A stretch of 36,409 nt of DNA from Ruminococcus sp. (lineage in GTDB: Bacteria > Bacillota > Clostridia > Oscillospirales > Ruminococcaceae), in NCBI GenBank assembly GCA_029055625.1, contig JAIDCY010000101.1, positions 1 through 36,409 on the forward strand, in the 5' to 3' direction. The notes below the pieces were generated by a model that was not told the DNA's origin, searched no databases, and saw nothing but the letters and a program-made list of their open reading frames with translations. Shown piece by piece: positions 1 through 36,409 of this stretch (positions within the stretch are counted from its first letter, which is position 1; each line of letters begins with the position of its first letter). The position numbers were made by a program, and so were the translations under genes.

Positions 1-61
1 GTATTATTTTCGGTAAATGTCAATATTTTTGAAATATTTTCCGGAATTTTTAAAAAATCTC

Positions 62-90
62 TTGACATTTTGAAATTTTTATGATATGAT
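62..90 (+). promoter_or_regulatory. Sigma-A type promoter of the SPFH operon
   Basis: TTGACA at 62-67 and TATGAT at 85-90 are separated by exactly 17 bases. This leaves about 25 bases of leader before the SPFH start at 122. The preceding 60 bases are very AT-rich. It is the only convincing plus-strand promoter in the window. Confidence 0.85.
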
Positions 91-100
91 ATTGATATCA
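87..100. promoter_or_regulatory. Palindrome overlapping the -10 region, possible operator
   Basis: Arms TGATAT (87-92) and ATATCA (95-100) are exact reverse complements around a two-base centre, overlapping the -10 element and likely start site. TTGATATCAA (92-101) is a second, overlapping palindrome. A repressor bound here would block initiation. Because the second gene of the operon encodes a ribbon-helix-helix protein, autoregulation is plausible, but that is inference. Confidence 0.4.
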
Positions 101-121
101 ACTACGAAAGGAAGATTTATA

Positions 122-1117
122 ATGAAAGAAAAAATTTTATCCAAAAGACAAAACGGTATGCCTATGATGTTATTATGGGGTCTGCTGTACATAGTCGCAA
201 TAGTCCTTGTAATAAAAGGTGGCGTATCTGATAAAGGGCTTTTAGTCGGAGCAGGTACGGTTTGGCTGTGTCTCGGCTGGTATCCGTTCAAGGGTCTCAT
301 AGTCCTCAAACCACAGGAGGCTCTTGTTTTAACCCTTTTTGGCAAGTATCACGGCACTTTAAAGGGTGACGGCTTCTACTGGGTCAATCCGTTCTGTTCG
401 GGAGTTAATCCGGCATCTCATACGCATCTCAGACAGAGTGACGACGTCGGCGAAAGTTCAGCAATAAGCGTGCAGGGCGTAAGAACTAATACGACTATCC
501 CGACGAAAAAAATCTCCCTCAAAATTATGACACTTAACAACAACCGGCAGAAAATCAACGATTATCTCGGAAATCCGGTTGAAATCGGTATCGCTGTGAC
601 GTGGAGGGTAAAAGATACCGCTAAAGCTGTTTTCAACGTCGACAATTACAAGGAATATCTCTCGCTCCAGTGTGATACCGCTTTAAGAAATATCGTACGC
701 CTTTACCCTTACGACGTCGCACAGAACGTTGATACTACCGGCGACGGTATCGCTGACGAAGGCAGTCTGAGAGGTTCAAGCGAGATTGTCGCAATGAGAA
801 TACGGGACGAGATTCAGCAGAAAGTAGAAAATGCGGGTCTCGAAATAGTCGAGGCGAGAATTACTTATCTTGCATACGCTCCGGAAATTGCCGTTGTAAT
901 GCTTCAGAGACAACAGGCTTCCGCTATTATCGACGCAAGAAAAATGATTGTAGACGGTGCGGTAGATATGGTTGAAATGGCGATTGAACGCCTTAATTCA
1001 AGCGGTATGGTGGAACTCGACGAAGAACGCAAAGCCTCTATGGTTTCGAATCTGCTTGTAGTCCTCTGCGGTAATCATGATGCCCAGCCCGTCGTGAACT
1101 CGGGAAGTCTGTACTGA
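122..1117 (+). CDS. SPFH/band 7 domain membrane protein
   Basis: A 331-residue membrane protein of the stomatin/prohibitin/flotillin/HflK-C superfamily, whose members form oligomeric scaffolds at the membrane. Two hydrophobic segments (about residues 14-33 and 41-60) precede the SPFH domain (about 62-270), which starts with the typical [17 protein letters not shown] stretch and contains a VTWRVKD strand and an internal helix rich in RQQASA. The C-terminal coiled coil is short. The start at 122 follows a GAAAGGAAG ribosome site; an upstream in-frame extension to 86 would begin inside the -10 element and is rejected. It is followed after one base by a ribbon-helix-helix gene. Family is certain; the cellular role is unknown. 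Confidence 0.9.
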
Positions 1118-1118
1118 T

Positions 1119-1328
1119 ATGGCTCAGAAAAAACAAATTCCGCTCCGAATATCCGAAAAGCTGTATAAGGATATTTACAGGTGGGCGGAAGATGATTTCA
1201 GGTCTGTCAACGGGCAGATAGAATATCTGTTGACAGAGTGTGTGAAACAGCGTAAAAAAAATGGTAAATATGTTTCCGACGATATAGACGCTCCGCCGGA
1301 TTTCGATATTGAAAACTTCGACAAGTAA
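1119..1328 (+). CDS. Arc-type ribbon-helix-helix DNA-binding protein
   Basis: A 69-residue protein. The stretch [19 protein letters not shown], then [16 protein letters not shown], fits an Arc/MetJ ribbon-helix-helix fold: one beta strand (QIPLRIS) that inserts in the major groove, then two helices. The remaining 25 residues are acidic ([17 protein letters not shown]) and probably unstructured. It starts one base after the SPFH stop, so the two are co-translated. Such proteins act as dimers on short palindromes, and a palindrome lies over the promoter of this operon. No toxin-like partner of usual size is adjacent, so I do not call it an antitoxin. Confidence 0.75.
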
Positions 1329-1344
1329 AAAGGTGGTGAACATC

Positions 1345-1431: not shown

Positions 1432-1438
1432 TTGCCAA

Positions 1439-1469
1439 CCCCCTCGGATTATCGGGGGGACTTTTTTTT
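1439..1469 (+). terminator. Intrinsic terminator of the SPFH operon
   Basis: CCCCCT (1439-1444) pairs with GGGGGG (1454-1459), using one T-G pair and a nine-base loop, and is followed by a run of T from 1462. It sits eight bases after the stop of the 28-residue peptide. The U-tract touches the stop codon of the convergent penicillin-binding protein gene. Confidence 0.8.
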
Positions 1470-3060
1470 ATTTTTCCTGCGTTACCCTGTCGGCAATCTC
1501 ACGGAATACCGGTGCAGATACATCATTTCCGTAACCGCCGTCCTCGACAAGTACCGTCACGGCGTACTGTGGCTTGTCTGCCGGAAAAAATCCGGTTATC
1601 CATGCGTGACATAGTTCTATACCGTTCTTGTCTGTACGCCCTGTCTGTGCGGTGGAAGTCTTCGCCCCAACTGTCGTATAATTCGTCCGGGCGTTTGAAT
1701 TTTCGTTATCCGATACAGCGGAAATCATCATTTCCTTTAACTGTTTCGCTACTGACCTTTCCAGTACCTCCGAGTGTTGAGCATCCTTTTCGTTCAGTAT
1801 CTCCTTACCGTCCGGTGTCATACCCTTTATCAACTGCAATACCGGCATTTTACCGTTATTCGCTATCGCACACGTCAACTGCGTTATCTGTAAAGGTGTT
1901 GCGGAAAGTTTACCCTGTCCGAACGAAAAGTTAGCAAGTTCCGCCGGTATCGTTAAATCTTCTACCGTGGGCAGTACTCCACCTGATGCCGTCATTCCGG
2001 AACATAAATGTATTTCACGTCCGAATCCTAAATTATTCGCCAGCTCCCGAAACTTCTTCACATTTAACATCTGACTAAGATTTATAAAATACGTATTGCA
2101 TGAATTTGTTATCGCATCGGATAATGTCTGCATTCCGTGACCGTCCGTTTTATGACAGTTGAAAATTTTCCCCTCGACGTTCTCCTGACCTGTACAGTTA
2201 TACACGTATCCGCCGAAGTGGTTCATGATAGCCTGTGCGGACGTAACCATTTTGAAGACTGACCCCACACTATACGAATACAACGCACGGTTTATCAGGG
2301 GGCTTCTCTCGTCGGACAGTGCGGTTTCCATATCGTCGACGGTATACGTCGGATAGCTTACCATAGCAACTATTTCACCGGTCTTTACATCCGCTACCAC
2401 TATTGCCCCTTTATCGATATTCTTTCCGACTTCCTCGCAAATCCTCTGAATATCTATGTCAATAGTCGTTACCACTCCGCTTTTTTCCGCTGTACTCCGG
2501 ATAATTTTCTTTCCGTCACCAATCAGTATCCGTCCGAACCCATCAGTATTATACGTCACACTGTTCATACCATAATCGTTCCGCAGTAACTTATTATATG
2601 CGTACTCTATTCCGGCTACTCCCTCCCCCTGCGACAGATACCCGATAACGTGTTGAGCAGGTTGATTTTCTGCGTATCGCTCCGGAATCTCAAAGACCGT
2701 CAGACCGTCGGTATCTTCCGTATCCTCCGTACACTCAAATGTAAAAGGTTCACCTTCTGCGAATTTTTCAAGAAACGCTTCCCTGTCTACCGCATAATCC
2801 GCTACTTTATCCCTGTCGATAAAATCCGGTATCGCTACCGCTATCCGCTTTGTACCGGCGTTGACTATCGGTTTTAAATTCCGGTCGTAAATCGTACCCT
2901 CACTTTTTCCCGCTATTATCGTACATTGTGCATTTGTACGTGCGGTCTGGACGTGTTCACGCTTCATGGCGATATAATAGTAATTGATACACAATCCCAC
3001 GAATATTAACAGAAATATCCCACCGATTACTATTATTCTTTTTTCCGTTTTCCGTCGCAT
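1468..3060 (-). CDS. Class B penicillin-binding protein (transpeptidase)
   Basis: A 530-residue, membrane-anchored D,D-transpeptidase that cross-links peptidoglycan. Residues 8-31 form the N-terminal anchor. A dimerisation region begins with GTIYDRNLKPI (55-65). The transpeptidase domain has the nucleophile motif SVFK (267-270) and SCN (320-322). The third motif, normally KTG, reads KTS (467-469), followed by TAQTG. The length and short N-terminal region resemble the PbpA/SpoVD/PBP2-type enzymes of Clostridia. The ribosome site GAGGTGA lies inside the stem of a terminator-like hairpin just upstream. The upstream neighbour is an unknown secreted protein. The exact paralogue cannot be assigned from sequence alone. 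Confidence 0.85.
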   Translation of the reverse strand: MRRKTEKRIIVIGGIFLLIFVGLCINYYYIAMKREHVQTARTNAQCTIIAGKSEGTIYDRNLKPIVNAGTKRIAVAIPDFIDRDKVADYAVDREAFLEKFAEGEPFTFECTEDTEDTDGLTVFEIPERYAENQPAQHVIGYLSQGEGVAGIEYAYNKLLRNDYGMNSVTYNTDGFGRILIGDGKKIIRSTAEKSGVVTTIDIDIQRICEEVGKNIDKGAIVVADVKTGEIVAMVSYPTYTVDDMETALSDERSPLINRALYSYSVGSVFKMVTSAQAIMNHFGGYVYNCTGQENVEGKIFNCHKTDGHGMQTLSDAITNSCNTYFINLSQMLNVKKFRELANNLGFGREIHLCSGMTASGGVLPTVEDLTIPAELANFSFGQGKLSATPLQITQLTCAIANNGKMPVLQLIKGMTPDGKEILNEKDAQHSEVLERSVAKQLKEMMISAVSDNENSNARTNYTTVGAKTSTAQTGRTDKNGIELCHAWITGFFPADKPQYAVTVLVEDGGYGNDVSAPVFREIADRVTQEK

Positions 3061-3104
3061 AAAAAAATCACCTCGGTATCATTCTTGACATCTGAGGCGA
3101 TTTT
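3061..3104 (-). terminator. Terminator/attenuator hairpin that contains the PBP ribosome site
   Basis: On the minus strand, AAAATCGCCTC (3104-3094) pairs with GAGGTGATTTT (3074-3064): eleven pairs with one G-U and a 19-base loop. Three more T residues follow and run directly into the PBP start codon at 3060. The downstream arm includes GAGGTGA, the only Shine-Dalgarno of the PBP gene. The hairpin can therefore end transcription of the upstream gene and, if read through, hide the PBP ribosome site. Confidence 0.65.
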
Positions 3105-3112
3105 AATTCAGT

Positions 3113-3760
3113 TTATACAAGTATTTCCCACCAGTTATCATAAAAACGTAAGATGTTTGGGAATATCTTGTTGTGATTTAAATTATAAAACATATTGGCA
3201 GTATATTCACTATGTACTTCAGAATTACGTTTTCCGATATATTTATAAAACGCTACTCTTCTTAATTCAGATATTTCATCATCTGTTAATTTTTCCACGA
3301 CAAAATCCTGTGATAAAAGAATTTCAATATCGGTTAATCGGAATACGTCTTCTGTAGTATTTACATCCGTAAGAACCGTTTCAGCTTTATATTTCTGCAA
3401 TAAAACCGTTGCAACATCAGGTCTTTCCGCTAACTCTCTCACTCCATTGAACGTATTGTATAAAACTGGTATGAAACTCTGCACATCATTATAAAAAAGA
3501 TAATCTGTGAAATACGGATATTCAACAACAGCATCTACCAAAGCGGAAGTAGTCATATTCTCTAACCACTCTTCCGGTAACTGTAGCTTTTCTCCCCGGT
3601 CTTTTCGACTGCTTGCAGACCATGAAGGATTACTCATTACGCTTTTATAAAATTCTATCGCCTGTGATGCACTTTTCATAGTATATTCAGCAGAAACAGT
3701 AGCCGGAACACACAATAATATTACTATTGCAGATATAAAAACAGACAGTATTTTTTTCAT
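3113..3760 (-). CDS. Secreted protein of unknown function
   Basis: A 215-residue protein that I do not recognise. It has a clear Sec signal peptide: MKK, then a hydrophobic core (about 5-20), and a signal peptidase I site after VSA (22-24). The mature part is mostly predicted helix, with many aromatic residues, no cysteines, no obvious repeats and no known catalytic motif; it ends NWWEILV. The start is set by an AGAGGT ribosome site eight to ten bases upstream. Downstream is the hairpin before the PBP gene. A role at the cell envelope is plausible from export and neighbourhood only. Confidence 0.7.
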   Translation of the reverse strand: MKKILSVFISAIVILLCVPATVSAEYTMKSASQAIEFYKSVMSNPSWSASSRKDRGEKLQLPEEWLENMTTSALVDAVVEYPYFTDYLFYNDVQSFIPVLYNTFNGVRELAERPDVATVLLQKYKAETVLTDVNTTEDVFRLTDIEILLSQDFVVEKLTDDEISELRRVAFYKYIGKRNSEVHSEYTANMFYNLNHNKIFPNILRFYDNWWEILV

Positions 3761-3800
3761 ATATCCTACCTCTTTTTGCGTATCGTGTGTGATTTTTATG

Positions 3801-4235
3801 TCATTCGAGTATTATCGTAAAAGGTCCGTCGTTCAGGAGTTCCACTTTCATATCCGCTCCGAAAATACCTGTCTGTACGTTCTGAACCCTGCTCCGACAG
3901 TATTCCGTAAAATATTTAAAAAGACCGTCCGCAAAATCCGGTGAGCCTGCCTGTATGAAATTTGGTCTGTTACCTTTCCGACAGTCTGCATATAACGTAA
4001 ACTGCGGTACTATCAGCAGTGAACCGCCTACATCTTTCAGTGAAAGGTTTATTTTGCCGTTATCATCGGAAAAAATACGTAAATTTATTATCTTATCCGC
4101 AAGTCTCCGGCAATCTTCCTGTGTATCGTCCTTGCCTACCCCGAACAATACGAGATACCCTATATCAATCTTTCCCGTAACTTTACCGTCTACCGTTACG
4201 CTTGCGTGAGTTACTCGCTGTAAAACTATCTTCAT
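3801..4235 (-). CDS. dtd: D-aminoacyl-tRNA deacylase
   Basis: A 144-residue cytoplasmic enzyme that removes D-amino acids, and glycine from mischarged tRNA-Ala, so protecting translation. The family start [18 protein letters not shown] is well kept and the C-terminal active-site motif NDGPFT with its Gly-Pro pair is present. The other active-site motif, usually SQFTL, reads PQFTL here (VPQFTLYAD); the substituted Ser is unusual. Length is normal. The start is supported by AAGGAGG five bases upstream. A 149-base spacer with an inverted repeat separates it from the upstream beta-galactosidase gene. Confidence 0.92.
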
Positions 4236-4266
4236 AGTTTCCTCCTTACTGATTAACTTTCTTAAA

Positions 4267-4369
4267 GGTGACGGGTGGTGACGGGTTTAAGGCTATTTTA
4301 AACTTCTCTTATAAAAAAGAAATTTGTAAAAGGTTTATAAAATGGGGTCAAACTCGTCAACTCGTCACC
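4267..4369. repeat. Inverted repeat element between GH42 and dtd
   Basis: GGTGACGGGT occurs twice in tandem (4267-4276, 4277-4286). About 63 bases later, AAACTCGTCAACTCGTCACC (4350-4369) is its imperfect reverse complement, with G-U pairing possible in RNA, so the ends form a stem of about 20 pairs around an AT-rich centre. There is no coding capacity. It fills most of the spacer and could be a dispersed miniature repeat or a long-range mRNA hairpin. I see no second copy in this window. Confidence 0.55.
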
Positions 4370-4384
4370 ACACCCACCACGGAA

Positions 4385-6355
4385 TTATTTCCTTACTATA
4401 TCCACATCAAACGGTATCAGTCTTATTACGTCCTTGCCTCGTGAATCAATAATACTGTACATGGGCTTCGGCAACGGTATATTTACCGTTTCGTCGGAAT
4501 TGTTAAAAAAGAATACGTAATCGTTTATACCATTTGTCCGTGTGACTACCTCCACACCTTTCGGCAATCCCATAAGACGTGATATTCCAGCCTGCATCAT
4601 CAGATTACCGGCGAAATTCTCATAGAAATCCATATCGCATATAGTCCCGACGTAATATGCACTGCCTTTACAGTACTTATTCATCGTAATCGCCGGACAG
4701 CATTTATAAAAATTTTCACCATATTCAGCGTATGTTTTAGCGGTAGTTACATGAAGAACGTCGCACCATTCACGACATCTGAAAGTATTTCCGGCAAAAT
4801 CCCTTATACTCTGATTTATCGTACTACCTGCAGGGTCATACTCCGTAACATCCGCCCCGATAAGTTGACGGTATACCGTCGGGAGAGATTCCATTATACA
4901 GTTATTGTTGTTATCCTTAACTCCGCTCCGGCACGTCAGAACCAGTGTACCGCCGTTTATCACGAATCTGTAGATATTTTCCGTAACCGCTTTATCATTG
5001 ACGAATACTGACGGTGCGACTACTATTTTATATCCCGACAAGTCGGAATCGGCGGAAACTACGTCTATATTCGCTCCGTATCGTGCAAATGCTGTATGGA
5101 AATCCTCAAGCTGTCCGATATAACTGAAGTTATCGGTCTGTGGCTGTATCTTCAGTGCATTAAAACAATCCGGTGAATATAGTATCGCAATTTCAGATAC
5201 TATTTTCGCTGACCGGAAAACATCAAGTTTTGCAGACGTCTTGCATAATTCAGCAAATTCATAATATCTTCTTGACGGTATGTTGTTACTGTCAAGTATT
5301 CCGTGCAGAAACATTTCAGAACCTTTTAAAGCAGTACGCCATCTGTAATGAATTACCGTATCCGCACCATGTGCGAACGCCTGCAAAGAATATCCCATAA
5401 TCATTCCAGGTCTCGGAGCAGGTGACATTACAGACCATCCACCAGTTATACCGCTTAACTGTTCGGTAATCCAGAAATTATCACGCTTTATACCTCGCAT
5501 AAGGTCTAACCGGAAGGCGTGAGATTTTACCGTCTTATCCTTTTCTGCCGTAACAGGTGGGTAATTATCGTATGCGACAAAATCCATATTCTCGAAAAGT
5601 TTATAATAATCCGGTGCGTTCTCGCATAACCATGTATTAGTAGTTACTTCCGCTTTCGGAACTTCACGTTTTATCACTCCCGCAATCTCGCTTACGTATT
5701 CCGCTATACAATCGGCGGAAAATCTCCTGTATTCAAGACATAATGCCGGATTCTGCCATTCTGTCGGATAGTCTGTAGGGGGGGTGATTTCTGAAAGATT
5801 ACTATATGTAAGACTGTTTGCCTCGCAACCTATCGCAAGATTTATATTCTCGAAACTTTCGTATTTATCCCATAACCACGCCCTGAACTTATCCCTGCAT
5901 ACATTACACGTACACTGATACGTTTCAAGTTCGTTGTCAATCTGCCACGCAACTACCGAACTATTATGTCCGTAACGTCTTACGAGGCATTGAGTAAGTC
6001 TTTCCGCATACGCCCTGAAATACGGTACATTTATACATCTATGATTTCTTATACCTGTCCGGACAGGTCTGTTATCCGTGCCAATCTGTACTATTTCGGG
6101 GTGCGATTCATACAGCCATAACGGCGGATTACCTGTAGGAATACACATCATTATTTCGATACCGGCGTTACTGAAAATTTCAACAACATTATCCAGCCAC
6201 TCAAAATCAAAATTTCCGTCAGATTTTTCGACAGATGACCATGCACCGTCGCATAAACGTACTATCTTTACACCGGTTTTTAACATCTGTCCGGCGTCCC
6301 TGCTCCATAATGATACGTCCCACTGTTCAGGGTAATAATCAACGCCTATCTTCAT
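4385..6355 (-). CDS. GH42 beta-galactosidase
   Basis: A 656-residue intracellular retaining beta-galactosidase (no signal peptide). The family 42 TIM barrel covers about 1-380: YYPEQW near the start, acid/base Glu142 in QIDNELE, and nucleophile Glu298 in WITEQLSG. Cys107, Cys148, Cys150 and Cys153 match the zinc cluster known in GH42 enzymes. A trimerisation domain follows (about 385-580) and a small C-terminal beta domain ends the protein. The start overlaps the end of the histidine phosphatase gene by 17 bases. No sugar transporter or regulator adjoins it; the importer at 20-24 kb could be a functional partner but is not close. Confidence 0.93.
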   Translation of the reverse strand: MKIGVDYYPEQWDVSLWSRDAGQMLKTGVKIVRLCDGAWSSVEKSDGNFDFEWLDNVVEIFSNAGIEIMMCIPTGNPPLWLYESHPEIVQIGTDNRPVRTGIRNHRCINVPYFRAYAERLTQCLVRRYGHNSSVVAWQIDNELETYQCTCNVCRDKFRAWLWDKYESFENINLAIGCEANSLTYSNLSEITPPTDYPTEWQNPALCLEYRRFSADCIAEYVSEIAGVIKREVPKAEVTTNTWLCENAPDYYKLFENMDFVAYDNYPPVTAEKDKTVKSHAFRLDLMRGIKRDNFWITEQLSGITGGWSVMSPAPRPGMIMGYSLQAFAHGADTVIHYRWRTALKGSEMFLHGILDSNNIPSRRYYEFAELCKTSAKLDVFRSAKIVSEIAILYSPDCFNALKIQPQTDNFSYIGQLEDFHTAFARYGANIDVVSADSDLSGYKIVVAPSVFVNDKAVTENIYRFVINGGTLVLTCRSGVKDNNNNCIMESLPTVYRQLIGADVTEYDPAGSTINQSIRDFAGNTFRCREWCDVLHVTTAKTYAEYGENFYKCCPAITMNKYCKGSAYYVGTICDMDFYENFAGNLMMQAGISRLMGLPKGVEVVTRTNGINDYVFFFNNSDETVNIPLPKPMYSIIDSRGKDVIRLIPFDVDIVRK

Positions 6356-6908
6356 AACTTTCCCCCTGAATATCGTACTCTAAAATATCGCAGTTATTAA
6401 TCATCCATACCGCAAAATCCTCTGTTCTGACGTCGTTGAAGTATGTATTTATTATCCGACATACTCCGCCGTGACACACAAGCAATACGTTTTTATCGCT
6501 GTAATTCGCTGTTACGTCGTCGAGTACGGAATATATACGGTGTGCGAGTTGTAACACTGATTCGCCTGTCTTACCCATACGTGTGGCGAAGTTTATCTTG
6601 TTATCCTCGAATCCCTCTGAAAATCTCGAATTTGTTTCATAGTTACCGTAATTCCACTCCCTGAGACGTGGTTCTGTAATGATTTCAAGACCTGTCTTTT
6701 CAGATATAATTTCCGCAGTTTTCATAGCCCTTTTCATTGGCGATACTATCATTATATCGACGTCAAGACCTGCTACACGTTCCGCTAATCCGTAAGCCTG
6801 TTGTATGCCGGTTTCGTTTAGTTCCATATCTGTAGTACCTAAAATTCTGTCCTGTTTATTGAAGTCTGTCTGTCCGTGTCTTGTAACGTATAATTTCAAA
6901 ATAATCAC
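6339..6908 (-). CDS. Histidine phosphatase family protein (phosphoglycerate mutase-like)
   Basis: A 189-residue protein of the branch-1 histidine phosphatase superfamily. It has the RHG motif (10-12) with His11 as phospho-acceptor, Arg60 in SPMKRA, acid Glu84 in LREWNYG, and His146 in the second motif VCHGG. Length and the lack of the PGM insertion favour a small-molecule phosphatase over a glycolytic mutase; the substrate is unknown. Its ATG overlaps the recN stop (ATGA), so it is translationally coupled to recN, and its end overlaps the GH42 start. In many Clostridia the place after recN holds spoIVB and spo0A; they are not here. Confidence 0.85.
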   Translation of the reverse strand: MIILKLYVTRHGQTDFNKQDRILGTTDMELNETGIQQAYGLAERVAGLDVDIMIVSPMKRAMKTAEIISEKTGLEIITEPRLREWNYGNYETNSRFSEGFEDNKINFATRMGKTGESVLQLAHRIYSVLDDVTANYSDKNVLLVCHGGVCRIINTYFNDVRTEDFAVWMINNCDILEYDIQGESYEDRR

Positions 6909-8566
6909 TCCATAACATATTTTTTTAATTCATCTCTTGCGGTATCAAGTATTAAATTACTCGGATTATCTCCGCCGATAATTCTTGCAATTTCAGAAAC
7001 TTTGCCGTCAAAGTCAAGCTGTATTACGTCCGTTTCCGTACGTTCGCCGACCGTTTTCTTCTCGATAAGCAAATGATTATCCGCCATAACCGCTATCTGT
7101 GACAGGTGCGTAACACATATCACCTGATGCATCTTACCTGTTTCACGTAATTTTATACCTATTTTCTGAGCGGTTTTACCACTTACTCCGGTGTCTATCT
7201 CGTCGAAAATCATAGTAGGTATGTTATCACGTCCGGCTATGACGCTTTTCAATGCTAACATTATTCTCGACAGTTCACCGCCTGATGCTATTTTTGATAT
7301 TGGTTTCAATGCTTCACCCTTATTTGCGGATATGAGAAATTCCACGCTGTCCATACCATTGACAGTCAGTTTTCCCTTTTCGTGCCGTACCTCTATTATG
7401 ACGTCCGGCATATTAAGAAATTCCAGCTCTTCCGTTACCCTTTCGGCGAATTTCTTTCCGAGTTCCTCCCTGTAGTCGTAAAGTTCCCTTGCCCTTTCCG
7501 TTACGGTATGCAGTAAATTCTCTTTTTTCCGGTTCAGTTCGGCTATCTCAGTAGCGGAACTCTCATACTTCGTTATTTCCGAGCAGGCATTATTATACAT
7601 CTCGATAAGTCCGTTACAATCCCTTGCGTACTTACGTTTGAGTTTATTTATCGTACTTAATCTTGTACCGAGATAATCTAACCGCTGACCGTCAAGTTCT
7701 ATCTCATCAGCAAGATTTTCGAGTTCGGAAGATATATCCGCAATCTCAATCTCTACCGCTGAAAGTCTTTCGTAAAGCGTATTGAGTTCCTTATTATCTG
7801 CGATATATCTTGAAATCTCAAACTCCGCACTCGCTATCATATCATTGGCGGTATCCTCCCCCGTGATACTCTGTACGGCGTTTTTTATCGCAATTATCAA
7901 CGTTTCCGCACTCTTTGCGGTTTCATACTCTTTCTGAAGTGTTTCGTCCTCATTTTCCGATAATTCAAGTTCTCCTATGTCATCTATTATCGCATTCAGG
8001 TAAACTGTCCGTTCCGTTCTGGACTGTTCAAATTTCCGCAGTTCGTTTAATTTCTTTGCGGTCTGCTGTAGTTCACGGAAAGATTCCCTGTAATTTTCAA
8101 GAAACGTATTATCCGTACCGAAATCGTCGAGTACCTGTAAATGTCTGTCACTGTCAAGGAGCACCTGATTATCATGCTGACCGTGTATGTTTATCAGCAT
8201 AGACCCGATTTCCTTCAGCAGTGATGCGGAGGCTGTACGGTGATTTATCCGTGCGATACTCCTTCCGTCAGAACCTATTTCACGTGTAAGCGTTATTTCA
8301 TCATTTTCATGTGCTATACCGAGTTCGTCGAGATATGCCGTTATATTTCCGTCAAGTTCCGTAAATAATGCCGTTATAACCGCCTTATCGCAACCTGTCC
8401 GCACTATATCCTTACTGCATCGCCGTCCGAGTACAGCATTTATACCGTTTATCAGTATAGACTTACCTGCTCCCGTCTCGCCTGTAAAGACGTTAAGTTT
8501 ACTGGTCAGTGGTATTACTGCCTCTTTTATTACCGCAAGATTTTTTATATATATTTCCCTTAACAT
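6905..8566 (-). CDS. recN: DNA repair ATPase RecN
   Basis: A 553-residue SMC-like ATPase that acts at DNA double-strand breaks. Walker A GETGAGKS is near residue 30. Long coiled-coil arms occupy about 150-360. The signature ASGGELSR and the Walker B stretch MIFDEIDTGVSG are in the C-terminal half. The frame is open 34 codons further upstream, but that part overlaps argR. MLREIYIKNLAVIKE is the family start, giving ATG at 8566 with a GGGGGGA site in the argR end. Gene order argR-recN is typical of Firmicutes; the spacing is four bases. Confidence 0.95.
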   Translation of the reverse strand: MLREIYIKNLAVIKEAVIPLTSKLNVFTGETGAGKSILINGINAVLGRRCSKDIVRTGCDKAVITALFTELDGNITAYLDELGIAHENDEITLTREIGSDGRSIARINHRTASASLLKEIGSMLINIHGQHDNQVLLDSDRHLQVLDDFGTDNTFLENYRESFRELQQTAKKLNELRKFEQSRTERTVYLNAIIDDIGELELSENEDETLQKEYETAKSAETLIIAIKNAVQSITGEDTANDMIASAEFEISRYIADNKELNTLYERLSAVEIEIADISSELENLADEIELDGQRLDYLGTRLSTINKLKRKYARDCNGLIEMYNNACSEITKYESSATEIAELNRKKENLLHTVTERARELYDYREELGKKFAERVTEELEFLNMPDVIIEVRHEKGKLTVNGMDSVEFLISANKGEALKPISKIASGGELSRIMLALKSVIAGRDNIPTMIFDEIDTGVSGKTAQKIGIKLRETGKMHQVICVTHLSQIAVMADNHLLIEKKTVGERTETDVIQLDFDGKVSEIARIIGGDNPSNLILDTARDELKKYVME

Positions 8567-22194: not shown

Positions 22195-23736
22195 TTAGCC
22201 AAGGTCTGGGATATCTCCTGAAACTTTCTCCATGAATGCAATCTGTGTATCATCCCATGAAGCACCGGATTCAAGATACTGTGCCTGAACGATGTCGATA
22301 AAGTCAGACTTTATAGTTGCGTCGTAAGGAGTGATAAGACCGTTGAGGTTGATTTTCTTTGCGTTTTCGTGGAGAACTTCAAAGTAGTTCTGACCGTCGA
22401 GGAGGTTAGTTACGTATTCGTTCGGGTTCTCACCGGAATTAACGATTTCTTCCATTACAGCCATGTTGTTGCAGTATTCAGGCTTGCTGAGTGCATATTC
22501 TTTAATAGTAGCAGGGTCAACAGTGAATGTCTTGATAAATGACTGTGCTTCTTCAGCGTTATCAGTAGCAGGATTAACAACAATCCATGTACCGCCCCAG
22601 AAGTAAGGTGAAGGACCTTGACAAACTTTCCACTTGCCGTATGTTGCACCGCCTTCGCCACCTGCTGCCTGAGCAAGAATAGCATCGCCGAAGCCCCATG
22701 TTGATACGAAGAAGCCCATTGCACTGTCGTCCTGACCGGAAGCGTACCATGAAGGATCCCACTGTGGGTTCTTTGTAACACCACCGCAATCCCAGAGTCT
22801 CTTAGCATAATCTGCGAACTGCTGGCAAGAACTATCGATATTAAGTGCATTATCTACAACCCACGGAGTTGTACGTGTTGCGGCGAATACCTGCCACATA
22901 CCACCGAGTGTATCAGCAAGAGCTGTTGCACCGCCGGACTGTTCTGCAATATCTTCAGCTGTTGCTACGAAGTCTTCCCAGTTGCCGATCTTAGCCTGCA
23001 TTTCTTCAGGGGATGTTACACCGAGATACTGTTCAGCGAGGTCTGCTCTGTATGCGAAACCACCGGCTGCTGCCTGCCATGATACACCTTTTCTTACGCC
23101 GTTGGAATCCTTACCGATTTCATCAGTATATCCGTAAATATCAGCGAAGTTGTCATCTGTAAAGCCGAGCTGTTCGAGTGGAGCTGTCTTTGTATCGTCG
23201 TTTATGTACTTGAGAGCCCAGTCTGCTTCACAGAAATAAACGTCGAGGTCTGCGTTATCATTGAAGAGAGCGTCGTATTTTTCGGAAGCCTGACCGCCAC
23301 CAACATCGAAGTTAATGAAGTTTATCTTATCGTCGGAAGTTCCTGTAACTGATTTCCACTGTTCGAGCATTGCCGGTACGTCGTCTGCGTTCCATGCTGC
23401 AACTGTGAAAGTGGCACCGCCTGTACCGAGTGATACCTCACCTACTTCTGTAGAGCCCTTAGCTACAACAGGTTCAGCTTCGCCTTCGTCTTCTGCCTCT
23501 GAATCTTCTTCGCCGTCTTCAGCTTCGGATTCGTCTTCAGCTTCTGATTCTTCTTCACTTTCTTCTTCGCTGGATTCCTCTTCACTGGATTCTTCTTCAC
23601 TTGATTCAGGGGCGGAAGTTGCAGGAGCGGAAGTAGCTGTTGAAGATGAAGGGTCATCGCCACCACAGCTTGCGAATGCACTTGTAGCCATTGCGAGAGT
23701 TGCGACTAAGGCTAAAGTTTTCTTGAGTTTGTTCAT
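22195..23736 (-). CDS. Extracellular sugar-binding lipoprotein (CUT1 family)
   Basis: A 513-residue solute-binding protein of family 1. The N-terminal lipoprotein signal ends at SAFASC with Cys24 as the lipid site (the -3 Phe is not ideal). Residues about 28-90 are a low-complexity Ser/Glu/Asp linker made of repeated SSEEE, SEAED units, unusually long. The binding domain (about 95-513) begins VSLGTGGATFTVAAWNADD. ATG has AAGGAGG nine bases upstream. Codon choice differs visibly from the flanking genes, and the only two GATC sites of the window are here. It probably delivers an oligosaccharide to the two permeases downstream. Confidence 0.92.
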   Translation of the reverse strand: MNKLKKTLALVATLAMATSAFASCGGDDPSSSTATSAPATSAPESSEEESSEEESSEEESEEESEAEDESEAEDGEEDSEAEDEGEAEPVVAKGSTEVGEVSLGTGGATFTVAAWNADDVPAMLEQWKSVTGTSDDKINFINFDVGGGQASEKYDALFNDNADLDVYFCEADWALKYINDDTKTAPLEQLGFTDDNFADIYGYTDEIGKDSNGVRKGVSWQAAAGGFAYRADLAEQYLGVTSPEEMQAKIGNWEDFVATAEDIAEQSGGATALADTLGGMWQVFAATRTTPWVVDNALNIDSSCQQFADYAKRLWDCGGVTKNPQWDPSWYASGQDDSAMGFFVSTWGFGDAILAQAAGGEGGATYGKWKVCQGPSPYFWGGTWIVVNPATDNAEEAQSFIKTFTVDPATIKEYALSKPEYCNNMAVMEEIVNSGENPNEYVTNLLDGQNYFEVLHENAKKINLNGLITPYDATIKSDFIDIVQAQYLESGASWDDTQIAFMEKVSGDIPDLG

Positions 23737-28317: not shown

Positions 28318-30846
28318 TTATGCTGTTACTATATCTTCCGCCTTCCGCAGATTTAATTTTTCTACTGCCTGCTCCCTCATCTTATACTTCAGTATCTTTC
28401 CGGCGGCGTTCATGGGAAAACTTTCTACAAACTCTATATACTTAGGACATTTATGTGATGCCATACGTTTTCTGCAGAATTTCTTTATCTCCAGTGGTGT
28501 AGCCGTTTCACCCTCTTTAAGTACGATACAAGCCATTATCTCCTCGCCGTAATTCTCCGACGGTACGCCTATTACCTGCACGTCCTTTATCTTAGGGTAT
28601 GTATACAGAAAATCTTCTATCTCCTTAGGGTAGATATTTTCCCCACCTCTGATTATCATATCTTTTATACGTCCGGTAATCTTATAATATCCGTCAACAG
28701 AACGTCTTCGGGCGAGGTCTCCGGTATGCAACCACCCCTGCGAATCTATCGCCGATGATGTAGCTTCCGGCATTTTATAATATCCTTTCATGATATTATA
28801 TCCTCTTGCGACCAATTCACCGTCTGTATCGTCTGGTAGTTCCTGATTCGTTTCAGGGTCAACGATACGGCATTCAACGCCGAATATATTTCCGCCCACC
28901 GTATTTACCCGCTGTTCCAATGTATCCGTCGTCTTACTCATCGTCACCGCCGGTGATGCTTCCGTCTGTCCGTATGTTATACAGATTTCTTTCATGTTCA
29001 TCTTCTCTATGACCTCTTCCATGGTCTTTACCGGACACGGTGAACCTGCCATTATTCCGGTACGCATATATGAAAAATCGGTCTTCTTAAAATCGGGATG
29101 TCCGAGCAGGGAGATAAACATTGTAGGTACTCCGTGCAGACACGTTATTTTCTCCTTGTTTATACAGGCAAGGCTTTTACGTGGTGTGAATCTCGTTATA
29201 GGTGACATTGTAGCTCCGTGTGTGACCGCTGATGTCATAGCAAGTACCATGCCGAAACAGTGAAACATAGGAACTTGTATCATCATTCTGTCAGCCGTCG
29301 ACAAGTCCATACAGTCGCCAATTGCTTTCCCATTATTCACGACGTTATAATGTGTGAGCATTACTCCCTTAGGAAATCCTGTCGTCCCTGACGTATACTG
29401 CATATTACATACATCATGTACATCTATAGTACGCCGTATCTTCTCCACTTCACTATACGGTACGTGCCGTGAAAGTTCTATTGCCTGCTCCCATGTATAA
29501 CATCCTTTATTCTCTGAACTTACTGTTATTACGTTCTTAAGAAACGGCAAACGTTCGGAATGCAATTCACCAGGTTTACAGGTTTCCAGTTCCGGGCATA
29601 TCTCTTTTATTATATCAATGTAACTTATTTCCTTTATACCATCTATCATTATTAATGTGCTTGTATCCGACTGCTTCAAAAGGTATTCCGCTTCATGTAT
29701 CCGGTACTCACTGTTCATTGTAACAAGTACAGCCCCTATTTTCGTCACCGCCCAGAACGTTATATACCATTGCGGTACGTTTGTAGCCCATATTGCCACG
29801 TGGTCACCCTTATTAACTCCCATTGCCAGCAGTGACCGTGAAAATGTGTCAACATCATCACGAAACTCCGGATATGTCCTTGTATAGTCAAGTTCGGTAT
29901 ATCTGAATGCGTACTGATTCGGAAACTCTTCACATATACGGTCAAGTACGTCCGGAAACGTATAATTTATAATACGCTCCTTCGGCCATGGATATTTACC
30001 GTTATTACGCATATTATCCTGTAATGTATGCTTATGCTTTGTCTGATACTGTTTCATGAACTCCGAAAAATGCGGTACTACTATTCCACCGTCAAACAGT
30101 CGGTGTGACCACCTCTTCACCCACTCCAATGATATGTAACCTATATAATTTATCGATTCCAGCACAGACAGCATTTCCCGAACCGGTACGTCACCGTTAC
30201 CTATCATACGGTACTCTATCTTACCGTCTGATGTCATTATACTGTCCTTTACCTGCACGAATTTTATATACTCACCAAGATTTGCTACCGTTTTTTCCGG
30301 CGACTCTCCGACAAATCTGTACGGGTGGTGCATATCCCATACTACCGCAACCTTACGGCTTTTTACCCTGTCAAGCATACGTGCAAGACGTGCGGTATCG
30401 CTATATACTCCGTTTGTCTCTACCAACAACGTTATATTATACTTTTCCGCTACCGGTATAAGCTTTATCAGAGATTCTATTACTACTTCGTCGTCTACTT
30501 CATCTTCCGGTCCTACATTGTTATCCGCAAGTACTCTTATATACGGCGTATTCAGTTTCTGTGCAAGTTCCGCATATGCTATTATTTCAGACTCCGCATT
30601 ATCATAATTTTCTGCATCTTTTAAACACGCTCCCGTCGACAGACAAGGGATTTCCAGATTAAGTTCATTAAGTTTTTCAATAGTCTGTGGCAGTCTTGAT
30701 TCGGTAAAAGGTCTGGCTCTGTATGAATAAATTTCGTCACCTATGCCCCGTACCTCTATACCGTTGAAATTCAGGTCTTTCGCTATCGAATATATATCAG
30801 ACCATGACCACTCCGGACACGCAAGAGTTGAAAAACACGTTTTCAA
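28318..30846 (-). CDS. Fusion: sugar-isomerase-like TIM barrel plus acyl-CoA synthetase
   Basis: An 842-residue cytoplasmic protein with two enzymes in one chain. Residues about 1-265 are an AP-endonuclease-2/xylose-isomerase-like TIM barrel (start KTCFSTLACPEWSW) with metal ligands kept: Glu143 (LVETNG), Asp171 and His173/174 (VWDMHHP), Glu241 (SLEW). Residues about 285-842 are an ANL adenylating enzyme: YTSGTTGFPKG (484-494), YGQTEASP, GWLHTGDLA, GRIKDMIIRGGENIYP, and catalytic Lys817 in AAGKILKYK; closest in look to medium/long-chain acyl-CoA synthetases. Start: the ATG at 30855 directly abuts AAAGGA, so TTG at 30846, nine bases on, is preferred and matches the family N-terminus. Substrates unknown. 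Confidence 0.88.
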   Translation of the reverse strand: MKTCFSTLACPEWSWSDIYSIAKDLNFNGIEVRGIGDEIYSYRARPFTESRLPQTIEKLNELNLEIPCLSTGACLKDAENYDNAESEIIAYAELAQKLNTPYIRVLADNNVGPEDEVDDEVVIESLIKLIPVAEKYNITLLVETNGVYSDTARLARMLDRVKSRKVAVVWDMHHPYRFVGESPEKTVANLGEYIKFVQVKDSIMTSDGKIEYRMIGNGDVPVREMLSVLESINYIGYISLEWVKRWSHRLFDGGIVVPHFSEFMKQYQTKHKHTLQDNMRNNGKYPWPKERIINYTFPDVLDRICEEFPNQYAFRYTELDYTRTYPEFRDDVDTFSRSLLAMGVNKGDHVAIWATNVPQWYITFWAVTKIGAVLVTMNSEYRIHEAEYLLKQSDTSTLIMIDGIKEISYIDIIKEICPELETCKPGELHSERLPFLKNVITVSSENKGCYTWEQAIELSRHVPYSEVEKIRRTIDVHDVCNMQYTSGTTGFPKGVMLTHYNVVNNGKAIGDCMDLSTADRMMIQVPMFHCFGMVLAMTSAVTHGATMSPITRFTPRKSLACINKEKITCLHGVPTMFISLLGHPDFKKTDFSYMRTGIMAGSPCPVKTMEEVIEKMNMKEICITYGQTEASPAVTMSKTTDTLEQRVNTVGGNIFGVECRIVDPETNQELPDDTDGELVARGYNIMKGYYKMPEATSSAIDSQGWLHTGDLARRRSVDGYYKITGRIKDMIIRGGENIYPKEIEDFLYTYPKIKDVQVIGVPSENYGEEIMACIVLKEGETATPLEIKKFCRKRMASHKCPKYIEFVESFPMNAAGKILKYKMREQAVEKLNLRKAEDIVTA

Positions 30847-30881
30847 GTATATCATTCCTTTTCATTGATATTGTAAAGAAT

Positions 30882-30910: not shown

Positions 30911-30921
30911 CCGGAGAAACT

Positions 30922-32178: not shown

Positions 32179-32190
32179 CTTACTACCTCC

Positions 32191-33222
32191 CTACAGTATA
32201 CACATACAGTCCCCGAAACTGAAAAATCTGTACCGCTCTTCTACCGCTATCTTATAGGCGTTCATTGTATTCTCGTATCCCATAAACGCAGATACCAGCA
32301 TTATTAACGTACTCTCCGGCAGGTGAAAGTTCGTTATCAGACCGTCTATACACTTAAACTCATACGACGGATATATAAATATATCAGTATAGCCTTCACG
32401 TTCGGAAATCTCATCGTAAAACGTCGCTACGCTTTCGAGTGTACGGCAGGCTGTCGTACCTACCGCTATTACTCGTCCGCCGTTTGCTTTCGTCTCGTTT
32501 ATCAGGTCTGCTGTCTCCTGTGGCAAGTAGTAGTGTTCGCTGTGCATTTTGTGATTCAGAACATTATCCTCTTTCACCGGTCTGAACGTACCTAATCCGA
32601 CGTGCAACGTCACAAATGCCGTTTTAATGCCTTTTTCGTGGAGTTCCTCTATCATCTCCGGCGTGAAATGTAATCCGGCTGTAGGTGCTGCCGCTGAACC
32701 GAGTTCACGGGAATATACCGTCTGATAGCGTTCCTTGTTTTCGAGTTTGGCGGTTATGTAAGGCGGTAACGGCATCTGACCTACATCTTCGAGTGCAGTG
32801 AAAAAATTCCCCTCACACTCGAATTTTACGATTCTGTTTCCGTCGTCTTTCGCCTCGACTACTTCCGCAATAAGTCTGCCATCGCCAAACGAAAATTTAA
32901 CTCCGACTTTTGCCTTTTTCGCCGGTCTGCATATTATCTCCCATATCTTGTCGCCTTTCTGCTCCAGTAACAGAAACTCTATAAATGTATGATTTTCTAT
33001 CTTCTCGCCGTAAAGTCTCGCCGGTATTACTCTTGAATCGTTCATCACCAACAAATCGCCACTTTTCAGGTGTCCGCATAAATTATAGAAATGGTCGTGT
33101 TCAATCGCTCCGGTCAGACGGTTCACACACATCATTCGTGAGGCGTTACGAGGTTCTACCGGTGTCTGTGCTATGAGTTCTTCCGGCAAATCGTAATAAA
33201 AATCGGATTTTAAAAGTTCCAT
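32191..33222 (-). CDS. queA: S-adenosylmethionine:tRNA ribosyltransferase-isomerase QueA
   Basis: A 343-residue enzyme that moves the ribosyl part of SAM onto preQ1 in tRNA to give epoxyqueuosine. The typical start FYYDLPEELIAQTPVEPRNASRMM in pieces, GSAAAPTAGLHFT, HVGLGTFRPV, and FHLPESTLIMLVSAF are all present; length is normal. Ribosome site AAGGAG lies before the ATG. It normally adjoins tgt; here a PAS gene and an hsdS gene stand between. Confidence 0.95.
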   Translation of the reverse strand: MELLKSDFYYDLPEELIAQTPVEPRNASRMMCVNRLTGAIEHDHFYNLCGHLKSGDLLVMNDSRVIPARLYGEKIENHTFIEFLLLEQKGDKIWEIICRPAKKAKVGVKFSFGDGRLIAEVVEAKDDGNRIVKFECEGNFFTALEDVGQMPLPPYITAKLENKERYQTVYSRELGSAAAPTAGLHFTPEMIEELHEKGIKTAFVTLHVGLGTFRPVKEDNVLNHKMHSEHYYLPQETADLINETKANGGRVIAVGTTACRTLESVATFYDEISEREGYTDIFIYPSYEFKCIDGLITNFHLPESTLIMLVSAFMGYENTMNAYKIAVEERYRFFSFGDCMCIL

Positions 33223-33232
33223 AATTTCTCCT

Positions 33233-34294
33233 TTATATCTTTATTTCTTCGTTCAGCAGTTTCGGGAGCAGGGCATCACGCAGGGCGGAAAGTCTTTTAT
33301 TTTCCAATTGATTTTTACCGGTTTTATTAAATAATGGGCTGACAATATTATTAAATTCTGATATATCTTTTTCGTTTAATTCAATAACAGGTAATATTTC
33401 AATATGTTTCGGGTAAATATGCTGTTGTACTGAACCTGTACGCATTTTATATATTTCTTCCTGACGTTTTTTCAGCATTACGTACCAGAAATAAATATCT
33501 TCTGTCATTGTCGAATCAATGAACGACGAGTCGGAAGACCATACCGGAATACTCCACAACTGCACATATCCGACATTTGAGCCGGAAGCTGATACCGTTA
33601 TAACAGGTGCGGTCGTATTCGCTTTATTATGATAAAATGCCGGTTTCAAGCCTCCGGCAACTACAGGAACTTCTCCGGAAACAGCGTTCTTTGATACTAA
33701 ACCTTTTCCACGCTTTAACGTTATATATTCTCCTATCGTATGTTTACCGGTTGCAATATCAGGAAACATTTTACTGAATATTATCTGTGCCTGCTCCTCA
33801 AGATTTTTATTTATTCTGTTGTTGAGTTCTATTTTCCTGTCAAGCAACCTTAAAATATATCCGGTTTTCTTCTGCGTTTCGTAATCCGGTACGTTTACTA
33901 TGTAATCCATGATTGCTTTCTTGTCACCTCGGGGCATTTTAGTACCTTTTGATGTCTTCATTGAATATTCAAAAAATCTGTCGGCGGACAGCGTATAGTA
34001 CAGAAATTCCGGTGATATACCGTCTTCTGCCCTGAATACAAGCACATCGTTTGAACAGCTTCCGGAATTTTCCGCAAACCATATCTTTTTAAAATAAGGT
34101 CTTATATTTGAAACAAGTACATCATTTTTCTGATATGCCGTGACTTTTCCGGTTTTCGGTACTGTCGACGGCTTAGTGATTCCGCATTTATCCGGTAGCA
34201 TATTTTCAGTTGATATATAATTATCCGATATAATATCGCTTACGGAAATTTTTTCACTCACCAGATGACTTATATTTCTGAGTTCAGTTTTCAT
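33233..34294 (-). CDS. Solitary type I restriction specificity subunit (HsdS)
   Basis: A 353-residue DNA-recognition subunit. Two target-recognition domains (about 1-135 and 180-315) alternate with two conserved helical spacers: about 136-178 (ETQKKTGYILRLLDRKIELNNRINKNLEEQAQIIFSKM in pieces) and about 318-353 (LENKRLSALRDALLPKLLNEEI). The second TRD contains YVQLWSIPVWSSDSSFID and RTGSVQQHIYPKHIE, usual for HsdS. The protein looks intact. No hsdM or hsdR is near; it lies between queA and a PAS gene and overlaps the PAS stop (ATGA). It may serve a distant HsdM or have another role. Confidence 0.88.
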   Translation of the reverse strand: MKTELRNISHLVSEKISVSDIISDNYISTENMLPDKCGITKPSTVPKTGKVTAYQKNDVLVSNIRPYFKKIWFAENSGSCSNDVLVFRAEDGISPEFLYYTLSADRFFEYSMKTSKGTKMPRGDKKAIMDYIVNVPDYETQKKTGYILRLLDRKIELNNRINKNLEEQAQIIFSKMFPDIATGKHTIGEYITLKRGKGLVSKNAVSGEVPVVAGGLKPAFYHNKANTTAPVITVSASGSNVGYVQLWSIPVWSSDSSFIDSTMTEDIYFWYVMLKKRQEEIYKMRTGSVQQHIYPKHIEILPVIELNEKDISEFNNIVSPLFNKTGKNQLENKRLSALRDALLPKLLNEEIKI

Positions 34295-34659
34295 ATATTA
34301 TATCGTCTTTCCGTTTCAGCCGTCCGGAGTTCGTGCTTCTCATAGTAGCCGATTAATTTTCCCGTATCGTCTCGCAACGCTATCATGTATATATCGTGAT
34401 TCTCCTTGTTATGAAACGTATATACTTTATTATTCTCCATGCTCTCTCCGAACCATGCGACAACCTTTTCTATCATCACGTTCGATTCCGCATTATGACA
34501 CGCAAGCAATGATTTCCCTACTAACTCCGCACCGCCTCTTTTTGCGTATCTCGCAACAGCTGACGGGTTCATGTATACTATTATATGGTTCGTATCGCAT
34601 ATCACTACCGGCATACTATCCGCATCTATTACGCTTTTCAAAAATACTGATATTTCCAT
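34291..34659 (-). CDS. Small single-domain PAS protein
   Basis: A 122-residue protein that is essentially one PAS domain: PVVICDTNHIIVYMNPSAVARYAK, GKSLLACHNAES, then YMIALRDDTGKLIGYYE. The CHN motif after GKSLLA resembles the Cys-His region in PAS domains of DUF438-type proteins, which suggests ligand binding, perhaps haem or flavin, but I cannot show this. There is no output domain. It is placed 12 bases after tgt and overlaps hsdS by four bases, an unexpected partner for either. Confidence 0.8.
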   Translation of the reverse strand: MEISVFLKSVIDADSMPVVICDTNHIIVYMNPSAVARYAKRGGAELVGKSLLACHNAESNVMIEKVVAWFGESMENNKVYTFHNKENHDIYMIALRDDTGKLIGYYEKHELRTAETERRYNI

Positions 34660-34671
34660 ATACTGACCTCC

Positions 34672-35802
34672 TTAAATCCTCGTCGCAAGAAGTACGCTAT
34701 ATTTCTTCCGGAAATCTTCAAACTCGTCTCTCTCTATCGATTCACGTATTTTTTCCGTGAGCGTATTATAAAAATACAGATTATGTTGTACCGCTAATCT
34801 GCCTGCTAACTGTTCGCCTGCCTTGAAAAGATGTCTCACGTATGCCCTCGAAAAATTCCGGCAGGTAGGACAGTCACATTGTTCGTCTATCGGGTGAGGG
34901 TCTGTCTCGTAACACTTATTTCCTAAATGCATTATACCGCTCCATGTGAATACCGTTGCGTGACGTGCATTCCTGCTCGGCATTACGCAGTCGAACATAT
35001 CTACACCTCGTGCGACTGCCTCTATTATATTAGACGGTGTACCCACTCCCATCAAGTAACGTGGCTTATCTACAGGCATATACGGCTCTACTACGTCGAT
35101 AATACGATACATTTCTTCCGTCGCCTCTCCTACCGCCAAGCCACCTATTGCGTATCCGTCAAGATTGAGTTCTGCGATGTCTTTCATGTGCTTTATCCGC
35201 AAATCGTCAAACGTCGAACCCTGATTTATCCCGAATAACATCTGATGTTTATTTATCGTATCCGGTAAACTGTTCAGGCGTTGCATTTCCTCTTTACATC
35301 TATACAGCCAACGTGTAGTGCGTTCGATAGAGTTAAGCACGTACTTATACGGCGACGGATTTTCTATACACTCATCAAAAGCCATAGCAATGGTAGAACC
35401 TAAGTTCGATTGTATCTGCATACTCTCTTCCGGTCCCATAAATATACGGTGACCGTCTATATGCGATGCAAAATATACGCCCTCTTCCTTTATCTTCCGG
35501 AGTTTCGCAAGTGAAAATACCTGAAATCCGCCACTATCCGTAAGTATCGGCTTGTCCCAGTTCATGAACTTATGTAATCCGCCCATCTGCTTTATGACTT
35601 TATCCGTCGGGCGTAAGTGCAGATGATACGTATTACATAATTCAACCTGCGTTTTGAGTTCCTGCAAGTCAACGGAAGATATTCCGCCCTTTATAGTCGC
35701 ACACGTTCCGACGTTCATGAAACACGGTGTCTGAAATGTTCCGTGTACCGTCTCTACCTGTCCACGACGTGCCTTATTTTCCTTTTTAAGTAGTTTAAAC
35801 AT
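34672..35802 (-). CDS. tgt: tRNA-guanine transglycosylase Tgt
   Basis: A 376-residue TIM-barrel enzyme that swaps guanine-34 for preQ1 in tRNAs with GUN anticodons. It has DSGGFQVFSL (first catalytic Asp region), GGLAVGE, a VDMFDCVMPSRNARH stretch with the nucleophile Asp, and the zinc ligands CDCPTC with the later His of the C-terminal part. Start MFKLLKKENKARRG at 35802 has AGAAGGG upstream; an open extension to 35841 lies inside the preceding gene and is rejected. The overlap with that gene is eight bases. QueA, the next step, is three genes on. Confidence 0.96.
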   Translation of the reverse strand: MFKLLKKENKARRGQVETVHGTFQTPCFMNVGTCATIKGGISSVDLQELKTQVELCNTYHLHLRPTDKVIKQMGGLHKFMNWDKPILTDSGGFQVFSLAKLRKIKEEGVYFASHIDGHRIFMGPEESMQIQSNLGSTIAMAFDECIENPSPYKYVLNSIERTTRWLYRCKEEMQRLNSLPDTINKHQMLFGINQGSTFDDLRIKHMKDIAELNLDGYAIGGLAVGEATEEMYRIIDVVEPYMPVDKPRYLMGVGTPSNIIEAVARGVDMFDCVMPSRNARHATVFTWSGIMHLGNKCYETDPHPIDEQCDCPTCRNFSRAYVRHLFKAGEQLAGRLAVQHNLYFYNTLTEKIRESIERDEFEDFRKKYSVLLATRI

Positions 35803-36370
35803 TCTGCTTACCCTTCTGGAAATCAACCGGATATTTGTCAATCCAGTTGTAGTTGTTTATCCTTTTAATCAATGATTCCACATAGTTTTCAGCTTTTTCT
35901 TCACGTGCATACCATATATTAGACATACCGAATCCATAGCCGTCCTTTTTGCTGTACGGAACTTTCCACAGCTTTCTTGCCTCTTCGGAAAGAAGTACAC
36001 AGTTTTCGATATTGGCAGTAATGTAATACCAGTCCGGATTTTTCTGTAGATGTCTGTATACAGTGGCGTGTTTATACCAGCCGACTATCAAATTTCCTAT
36101 ACCCTCGTATCTCGCAAACCATACAACAAGAACATCGTCTATCAAATCAGATAATTTTGCATTTTCATCTATGTTTTCGATTAAGACGTTATTTCCGTGA
36201 TTTTCAAAATAGCCACGGCATATTTTTTTACCGTTTTCGATAACATACTTAAAGTTATACTGTTCGCCTAAGTAGTCAAAACCCTCCGGCATCTCGACAG
36301 GTTCGTCATCCGTTACGCCCTTATAGTACTTCATGGGCTTGATTTTACAGAAAAGAATTTTGTTTGTCAT
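35795..36370 (-). CDS. Conserved-looking protein of unknown function upstream of tgt
   Basis: A 191-residue soluble protein that I do not recognise securely. The middle has a distinctive aromatic stretch, NLIVGWYKHATVYRHLQ, then WYYITANIENCVLLSEEARK, and GYGFGMSNIWYA, suggesting a compact alpha/beta nucleic-acid or nucleotide-binding domain; the end is basic. The start is set by AAGGAG ten bases upstream. It overlaps tgt by eight bases, so expression is coupled, and a role in RNA modification is conceivable from context only. Its promoter lies beyond the window edge. Confidence 0.65.
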   Translation of the reverse strand: MTNKILFCKIKPMKYYKGVTDDEPVEMPEGFDYLGEQYNFKYVIENGKKICRGYFENHGNNVLIENIDENAKLSDLIDDVLVVWFARYEGIGNLIVGWYKHATVYRHLQKNPDWYYITANIENCVLLSEEARKLWKVPYSKKDGYGFGMSNIWYAREEKAENYVESLIKRINNYNWIDKYPVDFQKGKQNV

Positions 36371-36409
36371 TTTAACATTTCTCCTTTAAATTAATTGAGA
36401 ATTAAGAAT

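Follow-up and report, generated by a model that had tools for sequence, protein, structure and literature searches.

Why is GATC almost absent from a 36,409-base stretch of Ruminococcus sp. DNA (the window in this text, meaning the whole stretch analysed), and what kind of selection would empty it? A preliminary description of the window had listed only two GATC sites against roughly 130 expected, and this count is exact: the sites lie at positions 22755-22758 (inside a GGATCC) and 22987-22990, and the expectation is 129.8 under a zero-order model and 117.3 under a second-order Markov model. Both sites fall within one open reading frame (ORF) at 22195-23736 on the minus strand. The base composition of the window is 42% GC, previously judged by eye as about 40%, and the palindromes TCGA, CATG and GTAC, described as common, are present in 106, 81 and 186 copies.

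The contribution of coding constraint was measured by synonymous-codon shuffling, which keeps protein and codon usage, of 29 of the 30 window ORFs of at least 150 amino acids (aa), one nested ORF being dropped. In 300 shuffles these ORFs held 75.4 +/- 7.1 GATC sites, with a minimum of 57, against 2 seen, and the 4,182 window bases outside them contain none. The loss of GATC is beyond what protein and codon usage give, and codon usage as its cause is rejected by the shuffles. Four more tetramers are emptied in the window, namely CGCG (0, expected 78), CTAG (0, expected 24), GCGC (1, expected 51) and GGCC (3, expected 60), so that an account limited to GATC is rejected as well. Positions 1-36409 thus form one stretch depleted of GATC, CGCG, GCGC, GGCC and CTAG, in which it resembles the other parts of its genome that were read.

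The source genome is a metagenome-assembled genome (MAG) of 2.5 Mb, 92% complete and in 151 contigs, of which the window is contig C4; its dxs gene is nearest to records of Ruminococcus sp. or R. flavefaciens. Genome counts cover 1,238,436 unmasked bases (1.24 Mb, 49% of the MAG), with 10 stretches made of N only left out. Ten of the 100 stretches read from this genome were chosen because their contig holds GGATCC or a methyltransferase (MTase) match, and GATC counts therefore carry a slight upward bias. Observed against expected numbers were 18/2,314 for CGCG, 36/1,810 for GGCC, 52/1,594 for GCGC, 33/846 for CTAG and 237/3,771 for GATC. With an observed/expected ratio (O/E) of 0.063 in the half read, and not near 1, GATC avoidance is no local feature of the window; it is genome-wide and concerns both coding and non-coding DNA (both in the window, and 49% of the genome). 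The same tetramer method applied to 50 kb of E. coli K-12 as a control gave 240/271 for GATC, 301/359 for CGCG, 342/411 for GCGC, 140/239 for GGCC and 7/37 for CTAG. CTAG avoidance is widespread in bacteria, and CTAG should be given no weight. One contig (C70) is richer in GATC, with 17 sites of 30 expected; its positions 1741-7761 (L293) encode a secreted-looking protein of 2,006 aa, and this region was possibly imported recently.

The depletion is specific as to the type of word. Five of the 16 palindromic 4-mers have an O/E below 0.1 and the other 11 lie at 0.78-1.02, and none of the 120 non-palindromic 4-mers is below 0.56. Among 6-mers with an expectation of at least 30, an O/E below 0.3 was found for 9 of 43 palindromes versus 7 of 1,918 others, all seven of the latter being members of degenerate palindromes (GGNNCC, RCATGY, GWGCWC, CYCGRG). 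For longer sites in the same 1,238,436 bases, a maximal-order Markov expectation gave O/E values of 0.07 for GCCGGC, 0.10 for GGNNCC, 0.12 for RCATGY, 0.17 for GATATC, 0.18 for GASTC, 0.20 for GCNGC, 0.21 for TTCGAA, 0.24 for CYCGRG, 0.27 for CTGCAG, 0.28 for GGWCC, 0.29 for GAATTC and 0.30 for GWGCWC. By our own grouping, about 17 specificities of Type II kind stand at an O/E of 0.3 or less, four of them below 0.04. Depletion is confined to palindromic and degenerate-palindromic words, the exceptions being GASTC, which amounts to the non-palindromic GAGTC, and CCCG and CCAA, both mildly depleted. The mild depletion of the non-palindromic CCCG, CCAA and CCCAA in this genome is an observation for which restriction gives no account.

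How the avoidance is distributed was followed in 73 relative loci, among which the set of avoided sites varies between lineages. A dxs tree was built by a quick method from 70 rows, with four loci (L038, L073, L094, L097) left out because their dxs was short or incomplete; two of these, L038 and L094, are also without GATC. The window falls into a 14-row clade (support 100 in the Shimodaira-Hasegawa-like approximate likelihood ratio test), in every row of which GATC is at or below 0.07. At a cut of 0.15, the minimum number of changes on the tree is 4 for GATC, 5 for GCGC, 9 for CGCG, 10 for GGCC and 11 for CCGG. GCGC reaches 0.68 in L030, inside the 14-row clade, which suggests that avoidance can be lost as well. 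This record is titled Alistipes senegalensis; its dxs is 90% identical to that of the window and groups with Ruminococcus records, so the title is likely wrong. CCGG is near absent in L033-L035 and normal in the genome of the window, and in window coding DNA it is even above the codon null (244 versus 147).

Whether the sites were emptied long ago or are still being kept empty can be judged from diverging genomes. In the 77,415 bases that align between the genome of the window and that of relative G071 (identity 83.8%), no GATC is shared, six are found in our genome only and none in G071 only. Positions where our genome has GATC and G071 differs by one mismatch number 3 against 106.8 expected, and the reverse case 0 against 109.4. 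Compared with G064, G062 and G074 together with G063, GATC gains (seen/expected) were 5/84, 2/67 and 0/64 in our genome and 1/98, 0/75 and 1/70 in the relatives, gains being counted with no outgroup polarisation and with one substitution matrix per comparison; eleven non-avoided control palindromes had gain ratios of 0.27-3.30 over the four comparisons. New GATC sites being nearly absent, the avoidance is maintained, and selection has been active through most of the time since the lineages split. Together with the shuffles and the genome counts, this test bears out the long selection against GATC that the preliminary description had proposed. The site is leakier in our genome (0.063) than in G071 (1/364) or G062 (1/173), and leakier still in G064 (27/276); recent relaxation or import could stand behind such leakier GATC.

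Which enzymes could exert this selection was sought by profile searches for restriction-modification (R-M) families, with PF04556, PF06044, PF02086, PF00145 and PF01555 searched in 51 genomes, namely that of the window and those behind 50 of the 73 relative loci, and PF02976 in the genome of the window and 23 of those genomes (all 17 GATC avoiders and 6 of the 33 others). A DpnII-like or Sau3AI-like endonuclease is present in 3 of the 17 avoiding relatives. In G070 and G074 a restriction endonuclease (REase) of the DpnII family adjoins a Dam-family MTase, that of G074 matching M.DpnII with 187 bits; G070 carries two copies of the DpnII type, one endonuclease having an internal stop. In G064 a 451-aa homologue of Sau3AI, matching with 311 bits across residues 5-450, adjoins a 5-methylcytosine (m5C) MTase. 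MTases nearest to M.HhaI occur in G064 and G070 and would fit the loss of GCGC. Dam-family MTases are also found in G068 and, with no REase partner recognised among the scanned neighbours, in G062 and G065. A DpnII-family gene is present as well in G078, which lies outside the avoiding group and has GATC at 0.27.

We regard it as highly probable that the sites were lost under selection from a changing set of orthodox Type II R-M systems, gained and lost over time. With about 17 sites avoided, of which GATC is only one, a single GATC enzyme is insufficient for the pattern. On this explanation, the lineage of an R. flavefaciens-like gut bacterium would long have hosted many orthodox Type II systems. 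Whenever such a system was resident, newly arriving or decaying, unmethylated sites would be cut, mutations removing sites would be favoured and new sites purged, and successive systems may thus have emptied the genome of GATC (DpnII- or Sau3AI-like enzymes) and of some 16 other sites. What was seen directly is a site-specific depletion that extends over the clade and is maintained, together with GATC-type R-M genes in relatives; from this we infer that selection is exerted by restriction and that R-M systems turn over faster than their footprint fades. The decayed Type II pair on C141, the broken m5C pieces on C132 and the apparently whole Type II pair on C65 of our genome, described below, also speak for this explanation. 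The GATC-cutting restriction named as a cause in the preliminary description thus gains indirect support from the avoiding relatives, and the genome of the window itself yielded no such enzyme.

Several results weigh against this explanation. Profile search of the genome of the window gave no match to PF04556, PF02976 or PF06044, and its sole PF02086 match, on contig C149, is a Dam-like MTase scoring 97 bits against a Dam cut-off of 115; with PF02976 absent and only this sub-cut-off MTase present, a MutH/Dam mismatch-repair route finds no footing there either. Candidate GATC enzymes occur in 6 of 17 avoiders and in 5 of the 33 remaining relatives (P = 0.15 by Fisher's test, with PF02976 searched in 6 of the 33 only), and the number of avoided 4-mers is hardly related to the number of m5C and D12 matches (Spearman 0.20, P = 0.17). 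A GGCC enzyme is not pinned down, since the MTases nearest to M.HaeIII, in G071 and G062, match it with 148-162 bits only. Finally, a footprint should fade where enzymes are not resident, yet new sites are near nil. Only D12 matches are commoner in avoiders (2.6 versus 1.0 per genome, P = 0.019, uncorrected for kinship). As neither candidate enzymes nor MTase number track the avoidance, turnover of many systems is favoured over a simple resident-enzyme account; the cognate enzymes may lie in gaps of the MAG, may have been lost recently or may act through gene exchange.

The alternative that survives best, which we hold to be possible and clearly the less likely, is ordinary avoidance due to resident enzymes, with cognate Type II systems present in the strain and either missing from the MAG or belonging to unrecognised families. 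Type II REases are often missed by family models, the MAG reaches 92% completeness and is split into 151 contigs, and relative G064, which has a contig of 1.4 Mb, is rich in MTases (counting partial matches, 17 to PF00145, 9 to PF02086 and 6 to PF01555, over 13 contigs). Such completeness nevertheless leaves small room for some 15 entire systems, and PF00145 has only three matches in our genome, all broken or partial. On C141 (L310, 6801-8250) half a REase_II adjoins a 255-aa ORF whose N-terminal part is macro-domain-like by eye and which ends in a piece of an m5C MTase (MTase_II); this region is a decayed Type II R-M island. C132 holds broken m5C pieces. One Type II pair is apparently whole, consisting of an EcoRI-family MTase and a REase_II on C65 (L288, 6606-8853), where one gene looks relaxase-like by eye. 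C76 encodes an M.PvuII-like MTase with no recognised partner; avoidance of CAGCTG, the site it probably recognises, is only mild (0.66). Further R-M genes are HsdM with a specificity domain adjoining a 1,029-aa ORF on C90 (Type I), Type III-like pairs on C69 and C102, and MmeI-like proteins on C39 (tested against the family) and C132 (N-terminal part), with similar motifs on C11, C30 and C73.

Somewhat less probable still is that gene exchange keeps the avoidance, since circulating DNA must survive restriction in many recipients; site-free alleles would then spread, and no resident enzyme would be needed. The set of empty sites is largely common to the clade members despite their very different MTase content. 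The two contigs of our genome that look mobile by eye, C149, where the Dam-like MTase adjoins a phage-tail-like gene (so judged by eye), and C65, avoid the same tetramers (observed/expected 5/39 and 0/32 for GATC, 0/28 and 1/10 for CGCG, respectively). In Shaw et al. 2023 (PMC10359461), target avoidance follows the taxonomic distribution of R-M systems. Against exchange stands the finding that depletion is equally strong in conserved aligned DNA and in the remainder. Phage relatives were sought too: the phage-tail-like protein had no relative in viral contigs (tblastn), and the C149 MTase had relatives of at most 60% identity among 80 retained of 186 viral loci, of which 5 had GATC below 0.2 and 4 had at least two of GATC, CGCG, GCGC and GGCC below 0.2; among these 80 of 186, no phage genome with matching avoidance was identified. 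A related speculation, on which we would put no more weight, is that the genomes of the clade hold a collective restriction memory, the empty sites being maintained by whatever R-M systems they encounter through gene exchange and not by the genomes' own enzymes. If true, the list of missing sites in a genome would reveal the restriction to which its gene pool is exposed.

A DpnI-like system cutting methylated GATC, the other cause offered in the preliminary description, is very improbable. Of 42 genomes with systems of this kind, 38 underrepresent GATC according to Rusinov et al. 2015 (PMC4687349). PF06044 exceeded its cut-off in none of the 51 genomes, ours included, with one sub-threshold match in G105; as no match came from 14 control genomes either, this search lacks a positive control. 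Moreover, a DpnI-like system leaves the other avoided sites unexplained. Composition, codon usage or another non-selective bias, to which the low CTAG of E. coli lends only an ordinary CTAG loss, is the least credible cause in view of the Markov and shuffle nulls, the lack of GATC outside ORFs and the sharp differences between related genomes in the palindromes lost.

Set beside turnover of Type II systems, our favoured explanation, the pattern is a footprint of known kind and extreme breadth. Rusinov et al. 2015 (PMC4687349) describe how the sites of orthodox Type II systems are avoided, also as a trace left behind by systems since lost. Common to their data and ours are the loss of palindromic sites of 4-6 bp, GATC among them, and avoidance without an enzyme while relatives carry one (here DpnII-type homologues in G070 and G074 and a Sau3AI-type homologue in G064, none being found in our genome); unlike there, about 17 specificities are affected in one genome. 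As in Shaw et al. 2023 (PMC10359461), avoidance tracks the systems of the wider species or family pool and not those of the strain alone; the plasmid effect described there concerns 6-bp targets, with 4-bp palindromes showing no plasmid excess, whereas here the loss of 4-bp sites is near total in conserved DNA. Among listed titles and abstract beginnings of the open PubMed Central literature, in part the top-ranked ones only and with subscription literature mostly outside it, we found no report of such a pattern in Ruminococcus, which is weak evidence. Related species with different lost sites form a natural series for the rate of R-M turnover and the lifetime of footprints, and for telling whether these are maintained by resident enzymes or by gene exchange. 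In practice, such lists would guide which sites to omit from plasmids for these bacteria, and protocols cutting at GATC or GGCC would probably under-sample them.

As to the genes of the window, the 513-aa ORF with both GATC sites (22195-23736, minus strand) is, from its neighbours, a probable solute-binding protein of the adjoining ABC permeases. Its earlier label of sugar-binding protein is plausible in view of two adjoining BPD_transp_1 permeases; the ORF itself has no Pfam or NCBIfam match at 0.01. Absence of a GATC enzyme from the window, also claimed before, holds for the 29 ORFs of at least 150 aa scanned, 5 of which have no family match at the thresholds applied. The sole R-M gene among them, at 33233-34294 on the minus strand between queA (32191-33222) and tgt (34672-35841), is a solitary HsdS-like Type I specificity gene (PF01420; Specificity_I, 191 bits) and not a GATC Type II enzyme, with neither HsdM nor HsdR among the 29 scanned ORFs. 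A further ORF at 28318-30855 on the minus strand combines an AMP-binding enzyme with a TIM barrel domain of xylose-isomerase-like type.
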